Source: Candidatus Korarchaeum sp.
GTDB taxonomy: Archaea > Korarchaeota > Korarchaeia > Korarchaeales > Korarchaeaceae
Length of the DNA: 10,550 bases
Assembly (NCBI GenBank): GCA_020833055.1
Contig: JAJHQZ010000019.1
Span: 1 to 10,550 of the forward strand
Direction of reading: 5' to 3'
Part shown: positions 3,314 through 10,550 of the stretch, in pieces
Position numbering within the stretch: the stretch's first letter is position 1
How the letters are laid out: each line of letters begins with the position of its first letter
Made by a program: the position numbers and the translations under genes
The notes under the pieces: model-generated
Told to the model about the DNA's origin: nothing
Databases searched by the model: none
What the model saw: the letters and a program-made list of their open reading frames with translations, nothing else

Positions 3314-4264
3314 TCAGAGGGGACAGTATGAGAGTCCGTGTAAGTAAGGGCAGTGCGAGCATGAGGGTTTATTCCCCCAGCAATCCGTTTCATTGCTCCT
3401 AGTGATCAAGCAGTAGTTTACGAGGTTGCAATCTAAACAGGAGGGGAGTCTCAAGAAGTAGAGCCTGAAAAACATCTTATAAGATTTCCTCCATATATCT
3501 ATGAGGCCCTCCCTCTTTATATCTCCTAGTATCACCTCATTTATCCTCCTCTCCACCCCTAGGACCTTTGTCCTCCAGTTCCTCGAGTAATATATGCAGG
3601 GAGATACTATACCATCGCACCTGATGAATAGGGCTCTGTTTGAGAAGAAGGGGCAAGATCTATATGTTTTTGGGGCTAAATTTGGGATAACCACTTTTAC
3701 TCCACTCTCAAGGATCTTTAGGGGGACTAGATCGAGTTCCCTCCTGAGCCTATCGAGGCAGCCCTCATCGTCTATGCAACTCAGATCGACTCCTCCGGGG
3801 TAGTGTATGTAATTGCTGAACCTGATCTCGCTCATGCCCAAGTCCCTGGTGAGCTCGATAGATCTGCTGACCTCACCTACATTTAGCTTCGTTATAGTGA
3901 ATATCGCATTTACCTGAGGCTTAACGCTTCCTTTCTCTATTTTAAGTTCTAGAAGCTTCTTCAAACCTCTCATAACTTTTGAGAGATCTCCCGGCTTTCT
4001 TATATCCCTGTAAAGTTTGATATCATAGGCATCTATGCTGACGAAGACCTCATCCACCCCTAATCCAACGAGCTCCTCAGCCATATCCTCTAGAGCGGAG
4101 CCATTCGTATTCAGAGCTACTGTGAATCCCAGCTCCTTAGCGGTCCTAAGCATCTCGATCATTTTCGGGTTCAATGATGGCTCTCCCCAGCCGGAGAGGA
4201 CTAATTTGCTCACTCCAGCCTCCATCCCCTTCCTCAAGATTTGCTCCAGCATATCGTAACTCAT
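3314..4264 (-). CDS. Radical SAM/SPASM protein of the AOR tungsten-cofactor type, N-terminally truncated
   Basis: The body matches radical SAM proteins encoded beside AOR (Cmo-type, proposed tungstopterin cofactor maturation). LSGWGEP at 23-29 is the SAM-contacting GGEP-like motif, followed by LNTNGSALED and VDEVFVSIDAYD barrel strands. The SPASM part has C204, C216 and C223, then C276/C279/C285, C295 in TDCWGN, and C302/C305 in SCSHCPY, all apparently intact. The expected CxxxCxxC motif that binds the SAM-cleaving 4Fe-4S cluster is absent: the protein begins at MSYDMLEQ, already past it. The open frame continues upstream as HCFKN...KKCN to about 4303, where a cysteine sits where the third cluster cysteine would be expected, but it has no start codon and then runs into AOR coding sequence on the other strand. 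Probably a pseudogene or an inactive remnant. Confidence 0.8.
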   Translation of the reverse strand: MSYDMLEQILRKGMEAGVSKLVLSGWGEPSLNPKMIEMLRTAKELGFTVALNTNGSALEDMAEELVGLGVDEVFVSIDAYDIKLYRDIRKPGDLSKVMRGLKKLLELKIEKGSVKPQVNAIFTITKLNVGEVSRSIELTRDLGMSEIRFSNYIHYPGGVDLSCIDDEGCLDRLRRELDLVPLKILESGVKVVIPNLAPKTYRSCPFFSNRALFIRCDGIVSPCIYYSRNWRTKVLGVERRINEVILGDIKREGLIDIWRKSYKMFFRLYFLRLPSCLDCNLVNYCLITRSNETDCWGNKPSCSHCPYLHGLSYCPL

Positions 4265-4305
4265 ATTGCATTTCTTAAAGTTTGAGACAGCATTTTTAAA
4301 GCAAT

Positions 4306-4476
4306 GTGTTGAGGTTGAACCTGACGGAGAGCAAGGTCATTAAGGAGCCTCTGCCATCCGAGGACGTCCTGAGGGCTTGGCTGGGAGGAAGGGGCCTAGG
4401 GGTTTATTACATGCTCAAGGAAGTGGATCCGAAGGTAGATCCGCTGAGAGCCCAGCCGCTCCGGCCCCTACAATAG
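4306..4476 (+). pseudogene. N-terminal fragment of aldehyde:ferredoxin oxidoreductase (AOR family)
   Basis: From GTG at 4306 the frame reads VLRLNLTESKVIKEP, then AWLGGRGLGVYY and LKEVDPKVDPL. These are the hallmarks of the AOR N-terminal domain: the (I/V)LRVNLT start, the GGRGL turn that binds the tungstopterin, and the VDPL segment that normally runs into SPEN. Homology stops at about base 4449 and the frame closes after 56 codons; a full AOR has about 600 residues. None of the cysteine cluster ligands or later domains are present, so it cannot be an enzyme. Its left end abuts the truncated radical SAM gene and its right end abuts a flavoprotein fragment on the opposite strand. Confidence 0.75.
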
Positions 4477-4568: not shown

Positions 4569-5132
4569 TTATTTCCCATCCATGAGGTCCCTGTAGTACT
4601 CCATCACCAGCTTCTTCACCGCCCTCCTCAGGATCTCTGTGAGGCTAGCTTGACTCATCCCCAGCATATCAGCCAGCTCCCTCGTCCTTATTCTCCTGGG
4701 GAAGTCGAAGTACCCCATCCTCACAGCAGTCAGGAGGACCTCCTCCTGCCTCTCCGTGAGCATCCGACCCCTTTTGACTATCGAGATTATCCTGAACCCC
4801 TTATATGACTTAAGAGCTGATGAGAGCTTCCTGAGGGTCTGCCTGCTCGGCAAGATGAGCTCGCACCTCATCTCATCATTCCTCATATTAGCTGAGATAA
4901 GGAAAGCTTTAGTCGATGAGAGGAGCTTGCAAAGCCCACATCCCTCCGATTCCAACATCCTGACCTTATTCGTCCCCTCCCGGATCTCAACAGCATGTAT
5001 CATTTTATCTCCATATGGTCTGATCCCTATTATCTTGAATTCCTTTATTCCATTCTCCCTAAGTAATTCTGAGACTTTGCATTCCTCATTTTTGACTCTG
5101 AATATTATCCCGAGGGGTTCCCCTTTCCTCAT
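4569..5132 (-). CDS. Bat-type HTH_10 transcriptional regulator with a cysteine-bearing sensor domain
   Basis: A 187-residue DNA-binding regulator. The C-terminal domain (about 123-181) is the archaeal Bat-type HTH_10: LTERQEEVLLTAVRMGYFDF, then RELADMLGMSQASLTEILRRA and KKLVMEYY, where the MSQASLTEILRRA helix should read DNA. The N-terminal 120 residues form an alpha/beta sensor-like domain with C18, a CGLC pair (C65, C68) and C90; a redox, metal or gas-sensing role is inferred. ATG at 5132 is preceded by a TATA-like box at about -25, so the mRNA should be leaderless. It is divergent from the membrane operon starting at 5187, with a perfect palindrome between them, pointing to autoregulation and control of that operon. 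Confidence 0.85.
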   Translation of the reverse strand: MRKGEPLGIIFRVKNEECKVSELLRENGIKEFKIIGIRPYGDKMIHAVEIREGTNKVRMLESEGCGLCKLLSSTKAFLISANMRNDEMRCELILPSRQTLRKLSSALKSYKGFRIISIVKRGRMLTERQEEVLLTAVRMGYFDFPRRIRTRELADMLGMSQASLTEILRRAVKKLVMEYYRDLMDGK

Positions 5133-5186: not shown

Positions 5187-5786
5187 ATGCCTATGTTCCC
5201 GGGAGAGGAACTCTTAACGCTCCTTTCTTCCCTCCTACTGCTCTCGATTTCCCTTTACAAATATCTAAAGAGTAAGGAGATTTCTTATGCTATGTGGTCG
5301 ATAGCTGCTCTCTCTTTCCTCATAATAGCTGCTGCTCTAGCCCTCTTGAAGCTGGATGCACTCTCGCTCCCGATAACTCCATACGTCGGGGCCCTCTATC
5401 CGGCTTTCATGGCAGCCGGAGTCCTCGGAAAGGACCACTGGAGGAAGTATGTGATCTTCATATTGCTAATGCTTCTCCTGATGGTGATAGGTCAGCTCTC
5501 ATATAAGTTGATATTCACGGGAGCCGAGGTAATCCTGCACTCCGTTTCCGGCCTGATAATAACATTCCTGCCGTTCATAATGGTCGCTATGAGGAGAGCT
5601 CCTCCGACAGAAAGCTTGATAGGGCTGGGTGGCTTGCTCATCTCAATAGGAGGCCTGGCCCTCGCGACGCTATTAGCTCAGAAACCTCTCCTCCCCATGG
5701 AGACCGTTATATTCCTGCTGCACCCATTACTATTCCTCTCAGCGTTCCTAATGGCTGCGGGCATATATTTATGCAGGAGGGGTTGA
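5187..5786 (+). CDS. Seven-helix membrane protein, partner of the NOR/HCO-like subunit
   Basis: I do not recognise the family. The 199 residues are strongly hydrophobic, with about seven predicted membrane segments (roughly 8-25, 34-54, 63-80, 87-106, 112-135, 144-164 and 171-195) and short charged loops such as KYLKSKE and GKDHWRK. Three histidines, H84, H118 and H179 in LLHPLL, could bind heme but do not form a known motif. The next gene starts one base after the stop and its ribosome-binding purine run lies inside this gene's end, so the two are translationally linked and probably form one membrane complex. ATG at 5187 or 5193 may be used; the first fits the TATA spacing. A role as a small oxidase or NO-reductase subunit is a guess from context. 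Confidence 0.7.
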   Translation: MPMFPGEELLTLLSSLLLLSISLYKYLKSKEISYAMWSIAALSFLIIAAALALLKLDALSLPITPYVGALYPAFMAAGVLGKDHWRKYVIFILLMLLLMVIGQLSYKLIFTGAEVILHSVSGLIITFLPFIMVAMRRAPPTESLIGLGGLLISIGGLALATLLAQKPLLPMETVIFLLHPLLFLSAFLMAAGIYLCRRG

Positions 5787-5787
5787 T

Positions 5788-7158
5788 TTGGACCCGGTAA
5801 GGGCCCATATGATCCTAGCCTTCACTCTAGCTGTGCTCTTAGTCGGCTGGGGGGTCCTCCTATCCCCTCCCTTCAGGGAGCTCAGGGCCTCGCTCGGTTT
5901 ACCGACGGAACTCCCAGGGGCTAGATACAATCCGGAAGTGAAGGCAGCTGAAATAATAAATAAGGATGAGGAGGGTGCTGAATTCTTCTTAGCGAGAGTA
6001 GCCCACTATTATCACGCTCTTTTCGCCACTCTCCTCTACGGGATGCTAGTAGCGTTCAGCTCCATGAGGAGGGATTTAATAGGGGCTGATATCCTCAACA
6101 TAACCCTCATAGGAACTCTCTTCACTATGATAGGGGCTCTAATTTACTCATATGTGAGTAGGACATTCTTCTGGCATGGTCTATTCATAGCAGGCCTCTC
6201 CATACTCTTCTCCTCAGGTCTATTGACTCTCCTGAGGTTCAGACCATCTAAAACTCTGGATCTCGCTTTAATAGTCGCCCTTATACTCCTCCTAGGCGGT
6301 GGAGCTATAGGAGCTTACGTAGGGAGCAGTTACATCAGCGAGGAGGCATCAGGAGGCTTCGAGAGGGCGAAGATACTAGCTAGGTTCAACCCGGATCTGG
6401 CTGAGGATAATGAGATCTGGAGGGCCATGACTGGCCATCTCCATACGATGGTAGCACTAGCGACCACTATAACTTTCTTACTAGGCGTTTACAAGATAGG
6501 GATCCCGAATGGAAGGTTTGCGAAGGTATCGATACTTTTAGTGATCCTAGGGGAACTCGTGATGGCCATAGCATCCTATTCAGTTTGGTTCTTCGGGAAA
6601 ATAGCTCACCTCATAATAACTCCTGCGGCTCTCATCCTGATAGCTTCAACCCTGATCCTATCATTTCTAGTGGGCGGTTACAAATTCAAGGAGAGCTTCA
6701 GAGAGCCGAAGGGCCTCCTCCTCTGGGGGCTCAGGCTGGGCAATATATGGACTTGGGCCTTCATAGCCCTACCCGGCGCTATAGTCGCGATTAGCTTAAG
6801 AAAGCCCCTCTTCTTCAAACCAGAGTTCAGAAGTGAGCTTTGGGATTGGGCTGAGTTATCTTATAATATAGGCCATTGGCACATAATAGTTGTCCTATGG
6901 GGTGTTATGCTCCTCCTGGTATATCTAGCTGATGTACGCTCTAAGTGGGCCTCAGCAGCGGGCTGGCTCTCCCTGATAGGGATGCTGGGAGCAACTGCCG
7001 CCACTAACCTCTATATGCTCGCCAATCCCCCCGGCCCCTACTCCCCGAATCCCTACTCAAATATCTGGCTCTCGACGATTGTAGAGCCTTCCCTCATCCT
7101 AATGTCAATAGGCATCGCCGCGAGCTATATAATCTTCCTGCTGGACAGCCTCAAATAA
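5788..7158 (+). CDS. Divergent subunit I-like protein of the heme-copper oxidase/nitric oxide reductase superfamily
   Basis: A 456-residue integral membrane protein with about 12 helices. Histidines fall where subunit I ligands would lie: H73 and H76 in RVAHYYHALF (helix 2, low-spin heme), H217 and H219 in TGHLHTMV (helix 6, metal site), H274 in KIAHLI, and the diagnostic HxH pair H363/H365 in NIGHWHIIVV (helix 10). The gaps (H76 to H217 141 residues, H274 to H363 89) resemble those of NorB. Departures are a single histidine where the family has a pair, no HPEVY, and no glutamate of the NorB HLWVE motif. TTG at 5788 has a good AGGAGGGG site 6 bases upstream. No CuA or cytochrome c subunit is nearby, so the electron donor is unclear. 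The gene ends by overlapping the convergent stress-protein gene by 8 bases. An unrelated multi-heme family remains possible. Confidence 0.6.
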   Translation: MDPVRAHMILAFTLAVLLVGWGVLLSPPFRELRASLGLPTELPGARYNPEVKAAEIINKDEEGAEFFLARVAHYYHALFATLLYGMLVAFSSMRRDLIGADILNITLIGTLFTMIGALIYSYVSRTFFWHGLFIAGLSILFSSGLLTLLRFRPSKTLDLALIVALILLLGGGAIGAYVGSSYISEEASGGFERAKILARFNPDLAEDNEIWRAMTGHLHTMVALATTITFLLGVYKIGIPNGRFAKVSILLVILGELVMAIASYSVWFFGKIAHLIITPAALILIASTLILSFLVGGYKFKESFREPKGLLLWGLRLGNIWTWAFIALPGAIVAISLRKPLFFKPEFRSELWDWAELSYNIGHWHIIVVLWGVMLLLVYLADVRSKWASAAGWLSLIGMLGATAATNLYMLANPPGPYSPNPYSNIWLSTIVEPSLILMSIGIAASYIIFLLDSLK

Positions 7159-7621
7159 CCTTTTTCACTATGAGGACGTTGCAAGGGGCATTCCTCACGA
7201 CTCCCTCGCTGACGCTACCCAGGAGGAGCTCCCTTATCTTGCTCATCCCCCTGGCCCCCATGACTATCAAATCGAAATCCCCCTCCTTAGCCAATTCCAC
7301 TATCTCATGGACAGCGTGACCCTCCCTTATCACTTTCTCCACTTCAACCCCTTCCTTTGAAGCTGATTCAGCGTATTTGCTCAGAATATCCTCCGCAGCT
7401 CTCTTCTCGGCATCTACTAGCCTCAGGAAGTCGGAAGGATTCACTATAGGAGAGTAAGGGATGAAGGGGGTCTCAGGAGATACTATGGGCATTATACTGA
7501 CGGATGAGACGTAGAGCAGGGTCAATTTGCTCCCATATCTTTTAGCTATATCAATGGCCACTTCGAGAGCCCTGTAGGAGTTCTCGGAGCCATCTATGGG
7601 GACGAGGATCTTGCTGAACAT
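7151..7621 (-). CDS. Universal stress protein, UspA family
   Basis: A 156-residue alpha/beta Usp-fold protein, a typical single-domain length. It starts MFSKILVPIDGSENS with D10 of the nucleotide site, continues to a REGHAVHEIVELAKE segment (99-113), and carries the ATP-binding signature G-2x-G-9x-G-S as G122, G125, G135 and S136 in MGARGMSKIRELLLGS. The ending PCNVLIVK is also typical. The frame is open to 7750, but the ATG at 7621 matches the family start and has TTTAAA at -26; the longer form would overlap the divergent gene. It is convergent with the NOR-like gene, and its role in stress is inferred from the family only. Confidence 0.93.
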   Translation of the reverse strand: MFSKILVPIDGSENSYRALEVAIDIAKRYGSKLTLLYVSSVSIMPIVSPETPFIPYSPIVNPSDFLRLVDAEKRAAEDILSKYAESASKEGVEVEKVIREGHAVHEIVELAKEGDFDLIVMGARGMSKIRELLLGSVSEGVVRNAPCNVLIVKKVI

Positions 7622-7643
7622 AAAATATCCTGATCGTATGCAA

Positions 7644-7649
7644 TTTAAA
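7644..7649 (-). promoter_or_regulatory. TATA box for the universal stress protein gene
   Basis: TTTAAA centred about 25-26 bases before the ATG at 7621, within a short divergent promoter region shared with the gene at 7692. It supports the short Usp start. Confidence 0.55.
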
Positions 7650-7661
7650 CCCAGCAGATAG

Positions 7662-7670
7662 TTTTTTAAG
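7662..7670 (+). promoter_or_regulatory. TATA box for the small anchored protein gene
   Basis: TTTTTTAAG centred about 26 bases before the ATG at 7692, consistent with a leaderless transcript divergent from the stress-protein gene. Confidence 0.5.
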
Positions 7671-7691
7671 ATAGCCCCGGCATACGCTGAG

Positions 7692-8045
7692 ATGGGTCCA
7701 GTGGATCTCCTCAAGCTCGGGGTCTTCCTCCTCGGTATCTCAGCCCTCATACTGGCTTCTATAGCGCTTCACTCCTACTTAACCCAGCCCCGCGGACCGT
7801 ATGAGAGATTCTGGGCTTACTGCAATTTCAACACAGTGATAATAAGGGCTAATGAGGATCTGAGGAATGTATCAGTCTTGGACGCCAATGGCAGCCTGAT
7901 CTGTAACTTCGATGAGATCCCGAAGGGCTCAGATAGAGTGTGCAGGGTCGGTGGGGATGGCGTCTACAGAGTGGTCTCGGGAGGGGAGGAAAGGGCCGTC
8001 GTTTGCATTCCAATAGCTCCTAGACAGGCTCCGGGAGGAGACTGA
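7692..8045 (+). CDS. Small membrane-anchored protein with a cysteine-containing outer domain
   Basis: I do not recognise the family. The 117 residues begin with one membrane segment (about 6-29, LGVFLLGISALILASIAL), either an uncleaved signal anchor or a signal peptide. A roughly 85-residue, beta-strand-like domain follows, with four cysteines: C44 in WAYCNF, C71, C83 and C104. Four cysteines in a domain placed outside a thermophile's membrane suggest two disulfides. The tail is PRQAPGGD. ATG at 7692 is backed by the TATA spacing. Nothing indicates a substrate or partner. Confidence 0.7.
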   Translation: MGPVDLLKLGVFLLGISALILASIALHSYLTQPRGPYERFWAYCNFNTVIIRANEDLRNVSVLDANGSLICNFDEIPKGSDRVCRVGGDGVYRVVSGGEERAVVCIPIAPRQAPGGD

Positions 8046-9855: not shown

Positions 9856-10236
9856 ATGCTGAGTTACAGGGACGTCAGTAAGCGATACGGCGACGTGATC
9901 GCTCTCAAGGGCGTCACTCTGGAATTCCAACCTGGGAAAATACATGCCCTTCTGGGCCCTAATGGTTCCGGGAAGTCTACTCTGATGAAAATAGCGTTAG
10001 GGCTCGTGAAACCTGATTCGGGGAGCGTCAGGGTTTATGATGTAGATCCAGTCAGGGATCCGATAGGGGCTAGGAGGCTCATAGGCTACGTCCCGGAGGA
10101 AGTGCTCATTTACGAGAGCCTCACCCCATCCGAATGGTTCAGTTTCGTCGGGAGCATCTACGGGATGGATAGGGAGCTCCTGAGGGAGAGGTTGGATACC
10201 CTCATAAGGGTCGTTCAGCAGTTTCTGAGTAGTTAA
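9856..10236 (+). pseudogene. ABC transporter ATP-binding protein, truncated by an IS607-type insertion
   Basis: N-terminal part of an ABC-2-type ATPase. MLSYRDVSKRYGDVIALKGV gives the A-loop tyrosine (Y11), Walker A is GPNGSGKST at 34-42 with K40 and S41, and IGYVPEE (77-82) is the Q-loop zone with glutamate, as in several archaeal ABC-2 exporters. The sequence holds to about LDTLIRV (113-119), then changes to VQQFLSS and stops at 126 residues. The LSGGQ signature, Walker B and H-loop are all missing, so it cannot hydrolyse ATP productively. The break at about base 10212 coincides with the start of an IS607-type element, so insertion is the likely cause; the remaining gene portion would lie beyond the window. 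Confidence 0.85.
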
Positions 10237-10246
10237 CTTTTTATAG
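10237..10246 (+). promoter_or_regulatory. TATA-like box of the IS607 recombinase
   Basis: CTTTTTATAG lies about 29 bases before the ATG at 10271, inside the element, so it would carry its own promoter. Confidence 0.4.
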
Positions 10247-10270
10247 CTCTTCTCAACAATTCTTTACATA

Positions 10271-10550
10271 ATGTGTGAAAAACTGCTAACTCTCCGAGAG
10301 GCTTGTAGAAGGTTGGGAATACATCCCAATACGCTCAGGAAGTGGGATAAACAGGGGAAGATAAGGGTCGTCAGAACTGTCGGCGGTAGGAGGAGGATAC
10401 CTGAGAGTGAAGTTGAGCGTTTAATGGGATTTGTTAGGCCTGATGTCTCGGGGAAGGCGGTTATCTATGCAAGGGTCTCCTCCCACGACCAAAAACAGAA
10501 GGGCGATCTAGAAAGACAGAAGCAAAGCTTGCTGGAATACGCTAAATCAA
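10271..10550 (+). CDS. tnpA: IS607-family serine recombinase TnpA (partial, runs off the window)
   Basis: Transposase of IS607-type elements, which joins an N-terminal MerR-like HTH to a small serine-recombinase domain. Visible residues are LTLREACRRLGIHPNTLRKW (6-25), the DNA-recognition helix-turn-helix, the wing GGRRRIPESEVER (38-50), and then the catalytic start AVIYARVSSHDQKQKGDLER, where S70 is the expected nucleophile and the arginine of ARVSS is conserved. ATG at 10271 is the natural family start. About 93 of roughly 190-200 residues are in the window and nothing in them is broken. The element appears to have inserted into the ABC ATPase gene. Confidence 0.93.
   Translation, partial: MCEKLLTLREACRRLGIHPNTLRKWDKQGKIRVVRTVGGRRRIPESEVERLMGFVRPDVSGKAVIYARVSSHDQKQKGDLERQKQSLLEYAKS

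Follow-up and report, generated by a model that had tools for sequence, protein, structure and literature searches.

Common to the known families of the heme-copper fold is a single copper or iron site that includes a pair of histidines and, to our knowledge, the pore bounded by helices III–VI is empty in all known members. NnrS (PF05940) belongs to the NO response and is a polytopic heme/copper membrane protein. The two-gene unit described here encodes a 456-residue membrane protein that has in common with the C-type, PF00115 proteins CcoN of the cbb3 oxidase and NorB of cNOR a predicted fold, 12 helices, its length, the HxH motif of helix X, a histidine in helix II and one histidine at the VII–VIII junction that is as far from helix X as in cNOR. 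Unlike CcoN and NorB, the new family lacks the His pair, the HPEVY tyrosine, the NorB glutamate and any PF00115 match, it carries an HxH motif in helix VI instead of one histidine as well as an extra histidine (H130), and its conserved partner is a helical protein rather than a CcoO/CcoP or NorC subunit. The archaeal qNOR, represented by qNorB of Pyrobaculum aerophilum, whose gene adjoins that of a family member, shares with the new family a genomic island, possibly the substrate, and a single catalytic chain that works without a separate cytochrome c subunit. It differs in its NorB cytochrome c-like domain, its full canonical ligand set and its length (about 720 versus about 450 residues), and the two have no sequence relation beyond the superfamily. 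An NnrS-like gene lies in the same Pyrobaculum island, yet PF05940 matches no member of the new family. Among regulators, the HTH_10-type proteins NarO and DmsR govern the anaerobic respiration of haloarchaea, namely denitrification and DMSO respiration, and NarO activates denitrification genes (PMC11218638). A regulator of the same type adjoins our unit, and it is this position that suggests a regulatory role.

The two-gene unit and its distribution

The window, by which we mean the whole stretch of DNA that was analysed, is a 10.5-kb contig from the 1.39-Mb genome of a Korarchaeum-type archaeon (G000). The genes that concern us are these:

4569..5132, minus strand: HTH_10 regulator with a CxxC motif (CGLCKLL), divergently transcribed from the two-gene unit
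5187..5786, plus strand: 199-residue partner protein with about 7 helices and no known family, upstream of the large gene
5788..7158, plus strand: 456-residue, 12-helix membrane protein with a predicted heme-copper oxidase fold, TTG start

The initial annotation of this DNA had described two open reading frames one base apart, and the coordinates agree: the stop of the partner gene ends at 5786, the TTG start of the large gene lies at 5788, and a Shine-Dalgarno-like GGAGGGG for the latter overlaps the end of the former. A copy that is 99% identical occurs in G010, which we take to be Korarchaeum cryptofilum OPF8. Compared with the K. cryptofilum copy, the large gene has a dN/dS of ~0.11 and the partner one of 0.17, so that both genes are under purifying selection. 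Because the pair is kept in other phyla in the same gene order and its dN/dS is low, the unit is not a product of chance.

The large protein was found in 14 of the 29 genomes of the host phylum group, in 8 of 57 genomes of the Archaeoglobales order and in 13 of 398 sampled genomes of Thermoproteota type, among them Pyrobaculum, with distant copies that are about 25% identical, and a scan of genome contigs added further Methanodesulfokora, Archaeoglobus and Geoarchaeota records. Among the hosts, we take G156 to be P. aerophilum, G116 P. calidifontis, G056 Archaeoglobus sulfaticallidus, G172 Pyrolobus fumarii, and G306 and G324 Pyrodictium. In the tree the window protein groups with Methanodesulfokora and other korarchaea, Geoarchaeota and Archaeoglobus form separate groups, and the deep joins with Pyrobaculum depend on long branches. 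One korarchaeal genome (G003; contigs C44 and C36, loci L014–L016 and L033–L036) contains scattered fragments of the family gene with in-frame stops, apparently a decaying copy. No PF00115 protein was detected in the window genome, in K. cryptofilum, in two of three other korarchaeal genomes, in the Pyrolobus genome of locus L068, or in the tested Archaeoglobales and Geoarchaeota genomes that carry the new family.

The partner was initially called an unrecognised seven-helix protein, a description with which its AlphaFold model is consistent, at low confidence (pLDDT 66), and to which the database searches added no family. Three of its residues (H118, G122 and P129) are invariant in 15 homologues. 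The order partner-then-large gene is kept in the korarchaea of the window clade, Methanodesulfokora, Archaeoglobus, Geoarchaeota, Pyrobaculum and other Thermoproteota; the partner is missing beside the copies of a second korarchaeal clade (L082–L084) and of Pyrodictium. Co-occurrence of the two proteins, which had been put forward as a check, thus holds for most relatives and fails for some korarchaeal and Pyrodictium copies. In both Pyrodictium genomes a peroxiredoxin gene precedes the family member instead of the partner (L066 6147–6857; L067 5433–6131). The partner frame is broken or frameshifted in three Pyrobaculum-like genomes (L073, L074 and L076), and in L073 so is the start of the large gene, which may reflect sequencing error or decay. 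The PDB fold matches of the partner, obtained from the low-confidence model, were generic seven-helix proteins only and were set aside.

Several further features of the window were observed. A universal stress protein gene (7151–7750, minus strand) is convergent with the large gene and shares 8 bases with its end. Relative to the K. cryptofilum locus (L125) the window is short of about 3.1 kb (window 4301–4448 and 3314–4264): only a 148-base remnant of the aldehyde ferredoxin oxidoreductase gene is present, the ferredoxin and FAD-protein genes are missing, and the radical SAM maturase of the tungsten cofactor is without its start (316 versus 366 residues). At 9856–10549 an ABC-transporter frame is cut to 126 residues, the related frame in L082 having 246, and it is followed by an IS607-type serine recombinase-like frame that runs off the contig end, which suggests an insertion.

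Fold and histidine ligands of the 456-residue protein

The AlphaFold model of the large protein, built on an alignment of only seven sequences, has a pTM of 0.83, a mean pLDDT of 76.7 and 12 long membrane helices, in line with the number first estimated. With Foldseek, the top 30 matches were all heme-copper subunit I chains (best E 2.5e-3, probability near 1, TM up to 0.57), and VIA-align, for which the background of helical models reaches a Z of about 14, gave Z 24.1 against both the cbb3 oxidase (387 residues, rmsd 3.6) and cNOR (383 residues, rmsd 3.8). The protein is therefore predicted, with little doubt on our part, to adopt the 12-helix, pseudo-threefold fold of heme-copper oxidase subunit I, which had been set out in advance as a prediction open to refutation and which AlphaFold, Foldseek and VIA-align all bear out. 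It could be argued that AlphaFold forced an unrelated 12-helix protein into an oxidase-like shape and that the histidines are incidental, given the seven-sequence alignment, the mean pLDDT, the best Foldseek E value, and the lack of significance when whole-length profiles were compared with cNOR, qNOR or A-type oxidases. We regard this as very improbable, since a Z of 24 extends across 85% of the chain, shuffled controls fall far short of the repeat-level profile matches, in which the HxH motifs stay in register, and seven membrane histidines are invariant at about 25% identity.

Sequence databases do not recognise the protein. Neither reading frame of the unit has a credible match in Pfam, NCBIfam or PHROGs, with none above the Pfam or NCBIfam cut-off, and PF00115 (COX1) gave no match at E 0.01 in any of 25 members; the search with oxygen and NO reductase subunit I profiles suggested in the initial annotation was run, and no model recognises the protein. 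A Bestrophin-like Pfam match (E 6e-4, one member only, below cut-off) and PDB sequence matches to an acyl-CoA synthetase and a photosystem subunit, from both single-sequence and profile searches, were rejected as chance. A description of the family was not found in the literature searched, which comprised open-access and not subscription papers. This is a new, apparently unnamed family within, or just outside, the known heme-copper superfamily.

The conserved histidines, whose conservation was checked in 15 and then in 25 homologues, are located as follows:

6013..6015, plus strand: H76, helix II
6175..6177, plus strand: H130, III–IV junction
6436..6444, plus strand: H217-x-H219, helix VI
6607..6609, plus strand: H274, VII–VIII junction
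6874..6882, plus strand: H363-x-H365 (GHWH), helix X

Across homologues of about 23–85% identity these seven are invariant: all 25 aligned sequences keep H130, H217, H219, H274, H363 and H365, and H76 is kept in every homologue covering that region. Y122, E356, W364 and Y409 are likewise invariant in the 25 sequences. The histidine pattern first noticed (H76, H217/H219, H274 and H363/H365) is thus real and every listed member of it invariant, but the list left out the invariant H130 and the semi-conserved H73. The helix X HxH by which the superfamily is recognised is present as H363/H365, invariant and profile-aligned with the canonical HxH, and its ligation of heme is putative. The spacing from H274 to H363, 89 residues, equals that from the first FeB histidine to the heme b3 histidine in six cNORs. 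By eye, the motif around H130 (HGLFIAG) resembles the canonical HHMFTVG or HHYYWIG of the CuB/FeB loop.

The CuB/FeB His pair at the VII–VIII junction is absent, H274 being single, as is the alternative H130; the NorB glutamate of helix VI (H-x3-E) is absent, the position +4 after H217 being M or A instead of Glu or Tyr; and there is no HPxxY, hence no HPEVY cross-link tyrosine. No CuA or cytochrome c gene lies nearby, no CxxCH protein is encoded among the likely window genes, and the window has no CcoO or CcoP. The missing residues had been noted at the outset, as had the lack of a CuA or cytochrome c partner, which holds within the window genes. Without the His pair, the HPEVY motif or the NorB glutamates, the 456-residue protein is, by the sequence features that define them, neither a NOR nor an oxidase, and the family name of NOR or oxidase that had been considered for it is not upheld.

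The relation to the canonical proteins becomes visible when the three four-helix repeats are cut out on both sides and compared by profile, the signal appearing only repeat by repeat. Repeat 2 of the family (153–298) scores 33.0 against canonical repeat 3, which contains helix X (shuffled maximum 17.2), and 36.9 against the helix X repeat of B-type oxidases alone (20.9 shuffled); repeat 3 of the family matches canonical repeat 3 more weakly (26.2, shuffled maximum 18.7), and in both alignments the family GHxH falls on the canonical GHxH. Within the family, repeats 2 and 3 score 44.1 against each other (shuffled maximum 22.5 in 150), which places H217/H219 on H363/H365, and repeats 1 and 2 score 28.2 (versus 19.0), which puts H76 on H219 and brings H130 near H274. 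The idea that a threefold repeat visible in sequence is special to this family was dropped, as a diverse canonical profile shows the same (P 1.5e-7, repeats 1–3). Two assignments of the ligands fit these alignments equally. In the same-order register, close to the heme placement first proposed, H76 and H365 would flank a low-spin heme and H363 would hold the active-site heme, faced by H217 or H219 together with H274. Shifting the register by one repeat would instead place the active-site heme on H217, faced by H76 and by H130, whose HGLFIAG would correspond to HHMFTVG. Summed profile scores prefer the shifted register for the B-type and the pooled profile and the same-order register for the A-type. 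The seven ligands may also allow both sites at once, filling the pore between helices III and VI. Since the helix VI HxH mirrors that of helix X and H130 mirrors H274, this pore could hold another heme or metal, and we raise as a speculative and on balance unlikely reading that the family branches deeply within the heme-copper fold, has gone unrecognised until now and carries a third cofactor site (an extra heme or metal) in the III–VI pore.

Gene neighbourhoods and heme supply

The clearest functional context comes from the crenarchaeal copies. In P. aerophilum (L072) the gene order is NnrS-like gene, qNOR, HTH_10-like regulator, a second such regulator on the other strand, partner, large gene, a further regulator and narG; here the qNOR carries the NorB cytochrome c-like domain, the NnrS-like match is weak (E 6e-4) and the HTH_10-type regulators are below the Pfam cut-off. 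A qNOR is also a near neighbour of the family member in L073 and L074 (Pyrobaculum). The identification of the Pyrobaculum family member itself as the known NO reductase proved wrong, the known one being the neighbouring qNOR gene. In Pyrolobus (L068) an HTH_10 regulator precedes the family gene, which has a multiheme cytochrome on either side; among named proteins, these two cytochromes best match hydrazine dehydrogenase, an HAO-type enzyme. The Pyrobaculum and Pyrolobus contexts fit a role with NO or a nitrogen oxide, and from gene position in these two crenarchaeal lineages we consider a link of the family to N-oxides slightly favored. N-oxide genes were seen near the family only in Pyrobaculum and Pyrolobus and not beside the Archaeoglobus and korarchaeal copies, and close relatives of narG are absent from the Archaeoglobus and korarchaeal genomes that bear the family. 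HTH_10 homologues lie within about 1.2 kb of the family gene in the window and in L017, L022, L068, L072, L073, L076 and L085, their CxxC motif having been read in aligned members and not in all.

The protein probably binds heme, and the supply of heme in the host has to be considered with it. HemB (porphobilinogen synthase) is absent from the window genome and from all other genomes of the Korarchaeum genus tested, as well as from the hosts G016, G043 (Geoarchaeota) and G190; it is present in the tested Methanodesulfokora, Archaeoglobales, Pyrobaculum, Pyrodictium and Pyrolobus hosts. In Korarchaeum no AhbB exceeded the cut-off, the matches being only Lrp-like, and AhbB-like tandem proteins are missing, and K. 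cryptofilum has been described as lacking any heme genes (PMC3004389). Heme-synthesis radical SAM genes near the K. cryptofilum copy were considered and rejected, the better of two matches being to TIGR04053 and not to AhbC or AhbD. By known routes, therefore, the Korarchaeum host could make no heme de novo, and either heme would have to be imported or the fold would work without it. The latter would mean that in this host the histidines bind non-heme Fe, Cu or Zn, in a metal-site membrane protein or a transporter built on an oxidase scaffold, for which the missing HemB and Ahb pathway can be cited alongside seven histidines that are nevertheless under purifying selection. We think this improbable. 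The same seven histidines are found in hosts with and without HemB, so that lineages that make heme keep the identical set, and a korarchaeon without HemB (G001; L094/L104, contig C9) encodes a PF00115 protein with the His pair and the helix X HxH, which favors heme import over a heme-free protein. Helix VI of that G001 protein reads WWGLDM and has no histidine at the usual CuB position. Another PF00115 protein (L103, on contig C18 of G190) has an odd helix X, with H-G-T-Y-A-V-T-A-H instead of the usual HxH.

A hypothetical function and its alternatives

We now put forward, tentatively, as the best supported of the readings and yet with less than an even chance, that the large protein is a divergent relative of heme-copper subunit I with its own ligand set and b-type heme that reduces NO in the membrane. 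What we infer for its heme binding, substrate, electron donor, partner and regulation can be put as follows. At least two b-type hemes would be held by the histidines of helices II, VI and X, H130 and/or H274 would lie distal to a heme, and menaquinol would supply the electrons for converting two NO to N2O within the membrane. The partner would be a subunit for quinol or electron entry or a stabilising one, and the adjacent CxxC-containing HTH_10 regulator would switch the unit on. In the non-denitrifying korarchaea and in Archaeoglobus the reaction might serve as protection against nitrosative stress.

Other functions have to be weighed against NO reduction. The protein might, in the manner of NnrS in the nitrosative-stress response, use heme (and perhaps copper) to bind, transport or sense NO, or to shuttle electrons, and form no N–N bond. 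The lack of an FeB glutamate or paired histidines would be understandable in such a protein, a second NOR would be redundant in a Pyrobaculum island that already has a full qNOR, and the adjacency of the regulator suggests a stress response; we nevertheless consider it unlikely, though worth keeping in view, as no member of the family matches PF05940 and the family retains all of the canonical heme-face histidines, more than a binder needs. Less likely still is a membrane oxidoreductase acting on another substrate, for scavenging O2 or turning over sulfur or another small molecule under anaerobic redox stress. The homologues of Korarchaeum and Archaeoglobus reside in genomes without narG relatives, the Pyrodictium copies follow a peroxiredoxin gene and some family copies are near molybdopterin oxidoreductases, all of which would suit it, but the HPEVY tyrosine, the His pair and a CuA subunit are missing and the N-oxide enzymes are the clearest functional neighbours.

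In essence, anaerobic hyperthermophiles from three groups of archaea have a family in which the predicted fold and the histidines of the heme face are retained but the ligands of the second metal are altered, which bears on the evolution of the oxygen and NO reductases. If the reading with a third cofactor site is true, the family would show how an asymmetric heme-copper centre evolved out of a three-repeat ancestor of greater symmetry, and the Korarchaeum protein would run on imported heme. The presence of the family in heme-auxotrophic korarchaea poses the question of whether these organisms scavenge heme or whether the fold can work without it. For Korarchaeum and Archaeoglobus, which are without known NORs of the heme-copper type, the unit provides a candidate for NO handling that has so far gone unannotated.
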